DNA from: an uncultured Clostridia bacterium | Lineage (GTDB): Bacteria > Bacillota > Clostridia > UBA1381 > CAJOGA01 | Length of the DNA stretch: 46,826 nucleotides | Direction: 5' to 3' | NCBI GenBank assembly: GCA_905233855.1 | Contig: CAJOGA010000001.1 | Coordinates: forward strand, 1-46,826 | Shown here: positions 25,350 through 26,773 of the stretch, one piece after another | Position numbering within the stretch: the first letter of the stretch is position 1 | Layout of the letters: every line of letters starts with the position of its first letter | The notes under the pieces: model-generated | The model's database searches: none | Seen by the model: the letters and a program-made list of their open reading frames with translations, nothing else | Told to the model about the DNA's origin: nothing | Made by a program: the position numbers and the translations under genes

Positions 25350-26531
<1,182 letters not shown>

Positions 26532-26584
26532 ATATTTTTCAAGCCTTTCTGTTAATTTGCTTTATTATTTTTAACCTGAGCAAC

Positions 26585-26614
26585 AAAAAAACTTCTTCCG
26601 CATTCAGAAGAAGT
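26585..26614 (-). terminator. Intrinsic terminator in the metK leader
   Basis: Minus strand ACTTCTTCtgaatgcgGAAGAAGTTTTTTT. Confidence 0.8.
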
Positions 26615-26635
26615 ATCCATATTTTAAATTATACT

Positions 26636-26735
26636 CTTCTTATTGCTGTTAGCGGAACCACCTTACTTGATTATTGCGATGTAGGTTGGTGTGAGGTCAT
26701 CGAGCTAACTCTCTACCTCAACTCATAATAAAAAG
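26636..26735 (-). ncRNA. Candidate SAM-I-clan riboswitch aptamer (P4-less) in the metK leader
   Basis: P1 CUUUUUAUU/AAUAAGAAG; P2 UGAGGU/ACCUCA with AGAG..CUCGAUGA kink-turn-like element; P3 core CCAACC/GGUGG with bulged A; pseudoknot GUUAGC/GCUAAC; followed by AAGAAGAGTAT/ATACTTCTT antiterminator and terminator. Confidence 0.7.
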
Positions 26736-26744
26736 CTTGAATAC

Positions 26745-26773
26745 ATAATATAATATTTTTTTGCATATGTCAA
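26745..26773 (-). promoter_or_regulatory. SigA-type promoter for metK leader
   Basis: Minus strand TTGACA, 17-nt spacer, TATTAT. Confidence 0.75.

Follow-up and report, generated by a model that had tools for sequence, protein, structure and literature searches.

Sequence evidence for a compact, P4-less branch of the SAM-I riboswitch family in a Clostridia metK leader

The window, a 46,826-nt stretch of an uncultured Clostridia bacterium genome, carries on its minus strand a metK gene preceded by a structured leader, the features of which are collected in Table 1. As the preliminary description had it, a promoter is followed by P1, P2, a kink-turn, a P3 with a bulged A, and a terminator (ACUUCUUC...GAAGAAGU-U7), all of which can be seen in the sequence. 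Aptamer positions are given in T. tengcongensis numbering; the conserved positions and the roles of the SAM-contact nucleotides were taken from PMC3764141, and the alignment register is our own.

Table 1. Coordinates of the metK leader features in the window
Feature	Position	Strand	Support
Promoter TTGACA-17-TATTAT, sigma-70-like	26745..26773	-	11/12 consensus matches
Whole aptamer, P4-less SAM-I variant	26636..26735	-	RF00162 40.2 bits; R1 37.1 bits; leave-one-out profile E 9e-20
P1 5´ strand CUUUUUAUU, with A6-U7 equivalents	26727..26735	-	
P1 3´ strand AAUAAGAAG, with A87-U88 equivalents	26636..26644	-	
J1/2 AUGAGU, with conserved G11-A12 plus the additional U characteristic of the subgroup	26721..26726	-	
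P2a 5´ strand UGAGGU	26715..26720	-	compensatory change in 3/6 P2a pairs among relatives
P2a 3´ strand ACCUCA	26692..26697	-	
Kink-turn and P2b (AGAG AGUUAG CUC GAUG)	26698..26714	-	
Pseudoknot strand 1 GUUAG	26705..26709	-	100% paired, 17 distinct sequences; 2/5 pairs change on both sides
Pseudoknot strand 2 CUAAC	26648..26652	-	
P3 5´ strand ACCAACCUAC; position 43 is C at 26689	26681..26690	-	
P3 3´ strand GUAAGGUGGU; position 59 is G at 26658	26657..26666	-	
J3/4 UCCG (canonical AAUU), no P4 after	26653..26656	-	
AUACUUCUU, candidate antiterminator segment for pairing with the P1 3´ strand; overlaps the terminator 5´ arm	26608..26616	-	
Intrinsic terminator hairpin and U7 run, 10 pairs	26584..26614	-	
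metK, methionine adenosyltransferase, downstream gene	25350..26531	-	NCBIfam TIGR01034, 594.9 bits

The element 5´ of metK matched the Rfam SAM-I model (RF00162) over its full length (model positions 1-108), with E 1.3e-7 for 701 bases and E 7.3e-8 genome-wide. Its 40.2 bits lie below the curated gathering threshold of 44.4 bits, and since nothing in the window matched at Rfam gathering thresholds, the leader is overlooked by a default-threshold scan. No further credible SAM-I was found with RF00162 in the 1.67-Mb genome. R1, a covariance model of four P4-less elements from which the window element was left out, detected it (E 2e-7) as the sole match in the window, and a sequence-only profile of the subgroup described below, excluding both the window element and the member L173, gave E 9.1e-20. 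The metK leader match is far beyond chance.

The window element keeps the equivalents of A6, U7, G11, A12, C44, A45, A46, C47, G56, U57, G58, A87 and U88. It lacks three usual SAM-I features, namely a score above threshold, P4 and the conserved G43-C59 pair, in place of which C-G is found; only 3 nt separate the pseudoknot from P1, and A61-A62 of J3/4 are changed to UC. P2b (GAG/CUC) leaves the loop AGUUAG, which can pair with CUAAC over 5 bp. The P2-loop pseudoknot proposed in the preliminary description stands, but we count 5 bp (GUUAG/CUAAC) rather than six, since a sixth pair would form at the expense of P2b. The same description viewed the RNA as a diverged SAM-clan riboswitch in which P4 is absent and the G-C beside the bulge has become C-G; these traits turned out to be conserved in relatives, with SAM-I as the best model of the clan. 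The opposing view of an ordinary SAM-I match applies in part, as the Rfam model does match, but under its own threshold. P1, P2 with kink-turn, P3 and the loop pseudoknot of SAM-I are present with covariation support. The metK leader is best regarded as a structural variant of SAM-I that has the same functional core and would work like SAM-I.

Alignments of related leaders show that SAM-I lacking P4 is a genuine and frequent form. More than 30 such leaders with strong covariation were found, among them metK leaders from other Clostridia (L013, L044, L075) and elements from two further genomes of the order to which the window belongs (L003, L088). Searching 392 genomes of the class with R1 gave a ranked set that, together with earlier loci, yielded 35 aligned elements (alignment A3), one of which (L147) probably has a P4 beyond the match. 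The structure including the pseudoknot was paired in 93% of cells, with both-side changes in 18/28 pairs and a covariation score of 0.468, compared with 0.172 for shuffles and at most 0.112 for slid structures. Model-fitted alignments favor the modeled helices; the pseudoknot, which lay outside the model and escapes such bias, was 97% paired, with all four pairs compensated.

When the 43-59 pair was tallied by script in 125 SAM-I elements, 117 had G-C and three had C-G (the window element, L124 and L128). A search for the pattern CACCAACC-N-AAGGTGGT in 399 genomes of the phylum returned mostly chance matches, about as many as in a reversed-pattern control. Of 15 pattern loci tested with R1, L164 (the same locus as L169) alone proved real, but it opened the way to the subgroup. 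This locus, from another class, is a near twin of the window element, sharing its GUAGAGAGUUAGCUC and GCUAAC and having compensatory changes in P2 (UAGGGU/ACCCUA compared with UGAGGU/ACCUCA). With a two-sequence model, R2, the class yielded 12 additional members scoring 65-99 bits, against less than 50 for the matches ranked next, and the other class yielded further ones.

Eighteen subgroup elements were aligned (alignment A6): the window element, 12 from other genomes of the class and five from another class. All have the 5-bp pseudoknot and the kink-turn style, and 17/18 have the C43-G59 swap. The equivalents of A6, U7, G11, A12, C44, A45, A46, C47, U57, G58, A87 and U88 are invariant in 18/18 sequences, and the P3 internal loop and all SAM contacts checked are invariant across the subgroup. 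The pseudoknot was fully (100%) paired, and 10/30 pairs changed on both sides. Covariation among relatives, as the preliminary description had anticipated, was detected, with compensated P2a and pseudoknot pairs and 0/500 shuffles reaching the score of either alignment (A3, A6). The sole unswapped row, L173, has the normal G43-C59; L170, which is swapped, precedes a small protein (MNTQGWMRG...) similar to that of L173, and this pair of related leaders may therefore capture the flip. The swap also is present outside the subgroup, and the pair thus may have flipped more than once: L124:1501-1587 and L128:1501-1587 are P4-less and precede homologous 70-83 aa proteins.

A subgroup model, R3, gave at least 82 bits for the subgroup elements listed when the other class was searched, one of them new (L199, 87.8 bits), and at most 54 bits for 100 other loci; among the 80 closest metK loci, it revealed no further member (best, 54 bits). 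In a FastTree analysis of 144 elements, all 17 swapped members formed one exclusive clade (support 0.865), which is indicative only given the very short alignment. The subgroup is characterized by a short link from pseudoknot to P1, the inverted 43-59 pair and no P4. The main oddities of the window element are a conserved state among relatives, not noise.

Compared with RF00162, members share P1, P2 with kink-turn, P3, the pseudoknot between loop and J3/4, SAM contacts, targets and the terminator platform, but lack P4, have C43-G59 in place of G43-C59, a 5-bp GUURG/CYAAC pseudoknot with G, not U, just before the pseudoknot strand, a GUAGAG or GGAGAG kink-turn and usually an extra U between J1/2 and P2. 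Other P4-less SAM-I elements (for example L044, L075 and L003) are similar in overall length and kink-turn, also without P4 and in some cases located before metK, but differ in having G43-C59, other pseudoknot sequences and R3 scores of 54 bits or less.

The genes downstream of the subgroup are mostly those of the methionine cycle, typical SAM-I targets. Besides metK behind the window element, we found homoserine dehydrogenase (hom; L178), O-acetylhomoserine sulfhydrylase (L182), methylenetetrahydrofolate reductase (metF; L184) and, read by eye, luxS followed by a metH-like start (L186) and a metA-like gene separated from the element by a stretch of N (L199). NhaC-like transporters follow L171 and L172. 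Behind the other members lie small proteins that belong to no family, a GNAT protein, or a small ORF and then a TetR-like gene. A small protein bearing a EEVIKDMSPEELEAFKKERYEKFVKPL-like motif is repeatedly found behind subgroup members (L169:1258-1416, L175:1220-1432, L176:400-750, L179:851-1201, L180:1829-2074, L185:1050-1400); those of L175 and L176 had no Pfam or NCBIfam match. Four loci (L171, L172, L178 and L182) have a canonical SAM-I of 88-96 bits that begins roughly 65-80 nt after the variant, a terminator separating the two.

A simple terminator is present no more than 85 nt away in 16/18 members. Several show strong complementarity between its 5´ arm (CCUUCUU) and the P1 3´ strand (AUAAGGAG), which points to the usual SAM-I design. 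For L176, L179 and L180, 0/300 shuffles were as good; for L183 and L173, the complementarity was no better than chance by the same comparison. The antiterminator proposed for the metK leader falls in between: the complementarity is real, with a duplex of about -8 to -9 kcal/mol, but only moderately above shuffles, 20/300 of which were equally good.

Aptamer architecture, SAM-contact conservation, covariation, the terminator and gene context, all read from the sequence, make it likely that the metK leader acts as a SAM-I-family OFF switch that senses SAM and works by transcription termination. SAM would enter the groove between P1 and P3 and lock P1, the P1 3´ strand then could not pair with AUACUUCUU, the terminator hairpin would form and metK would be left untranscribed. 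When SAM is absent, the P1 3´ strand would pair with AUACUUCUU and transcription would read through. We infer all three of SAM as ligand, the turning off of the gene and the antiterminator switch, the ligand and direction on the basis of the intact SAM contacts and the gene context. Counted against this reading are the high conservation of position 43-59 in classic SAM-I, the loss of A61-A62 from J3/4 in the window element, and the small proteins without assigned function preceded by about half of the subgroup.

A variant in series with a normal SAM-I could sense a second ligand. The subgroup would then keep the SAM-I fold and respond to a related compound such as SAH, methionine or a different sulfur metabolite, with the tandems as two-ligand gates. 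The four members that immediately precede a canonical SAM-I, all with terminators of their own, fit this scheme, as does the single (non-tandem) member before luxS-metH, and the spermidine riboswitch sets a precedent as a SAM-I variant with a changed ligand (PMC10853860). That riboswitch, which we compared by description only, is likewise a SAM-I derivative with OFF logic, one of which is known before metK, but it has an altered J1/2 and P3 internal loop and is associated with polyamine genes, whereas the subgroup has an intact P3 internal loop and G11-A12, all SAM contacts unchanged, and methionine genes as its known genes. Further, the available portion of a study of tandem SAM-I pairs reports 164 already known and reads them as pseudo-cooperative, without setting apart a variant first aptamer (PMC9481103), and in the window genome, the sole SAM-I-type element sits before metK. 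We consider a changed ligand unlikely. We give the same small chance to the subgroup being a separate riboswitch class with a non-SAM ligand, in which case the tandems, before hom, O-acetylhomoserine sulfhydrylase and the NhaC-like transporters, would be natural two-input gates on methionine supply.

It is very improbable that the metK element is an ordinary, individually decayed SAM-I leader with meaningless oddities. Its score is just under the Rfam cut-off, and U10 and the UCCG of J3/4 depart from the norm, some of these changes being found in few or no other members, but 16 other elements, from unrelated genomes of many families and two classes, share its principal oddities, and the exclusive clade and the leave-one-out profile match also speak against decay. 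Even less probable is membership in SAM-IV or SAM-I/IV. SAM-IV shares the core of the SAM clan and the absence of P4, but has a P5 and PK-2 (PMC6890682) that are not evident in the window element, where a terminator and antiterminator follow P1; RF00162, and not RF00634 or RF01725, also won the cmscan clan competition at its sub-threshold score, leading us to reject this identity. The preliminary description stated that both classes lack P4, which is correct for SAM-IV, whereas SAM-I/IV has P4 and no PK-1 (PMC6890682). The chance of a T-box, suggested by the local resemblance of AAGGUGGUUCCGC, is negligible, as the same letters form P3 and J3/4 of a full aptamer and RF00230 gave no match up to E 10.

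By these lines of sequence evidence, we take the metK leader RNA to be a real S-adenosylmethionine (SAM) switch and the subgroup to be a compact, previously undistinguished branch of SAM-I, located before methionine genes in other bacteria too, in some cases in tandem with an ordinary SAM-I. Searches of open-licence papers turned up neither P4-less SAM-I nor a C43-G59 subgroup, which is weak evidence of novelty. One of the most thoroughly studied riboswitch families holds a coherent compact branch at the edge of the Rfam threshold; with scores of 34-54 bits for the swapped members, about half of them under the threshold, annotation pipelines would recover it incompletely. Its existence suggests that many natural SAM-I members can do without P4 and that inversion of the conserved G43-C59 pair as a unit is tolerated. 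Since some members are arranged in tandem with a standard SAM-I, the same ligand with a different affinity can be tested directly against a second ligand.

We also noted two other sets of unusual SAM-I leaders. A second P4-less set (L003, L088, L120-L132, L134, L135, L137, L138, L140, L141, L145), in which the pseudoknot is often CAAG/CUUG and P1 resembles CCUAU/AUAGG, stands before genes without an evident SAM link. These encode small proteins without a Pfam family, several of them mutually homologous, three N-formylglutamate amidohydrolases and one ADP-ribosylglycohydrolase; in L140, metK comes after the N-formylglutamate amidohydrolase. The metK SAM-I leaders L020, L021, L025, L027, L032, L038, L042 and L053, from Psychrobacillus, Sporosarcina, Viridibacillus and Lysinibacillus, depart consistently from the consensus, with CCGAG in place of AAGAG in J1/2 and a changed J3/4.
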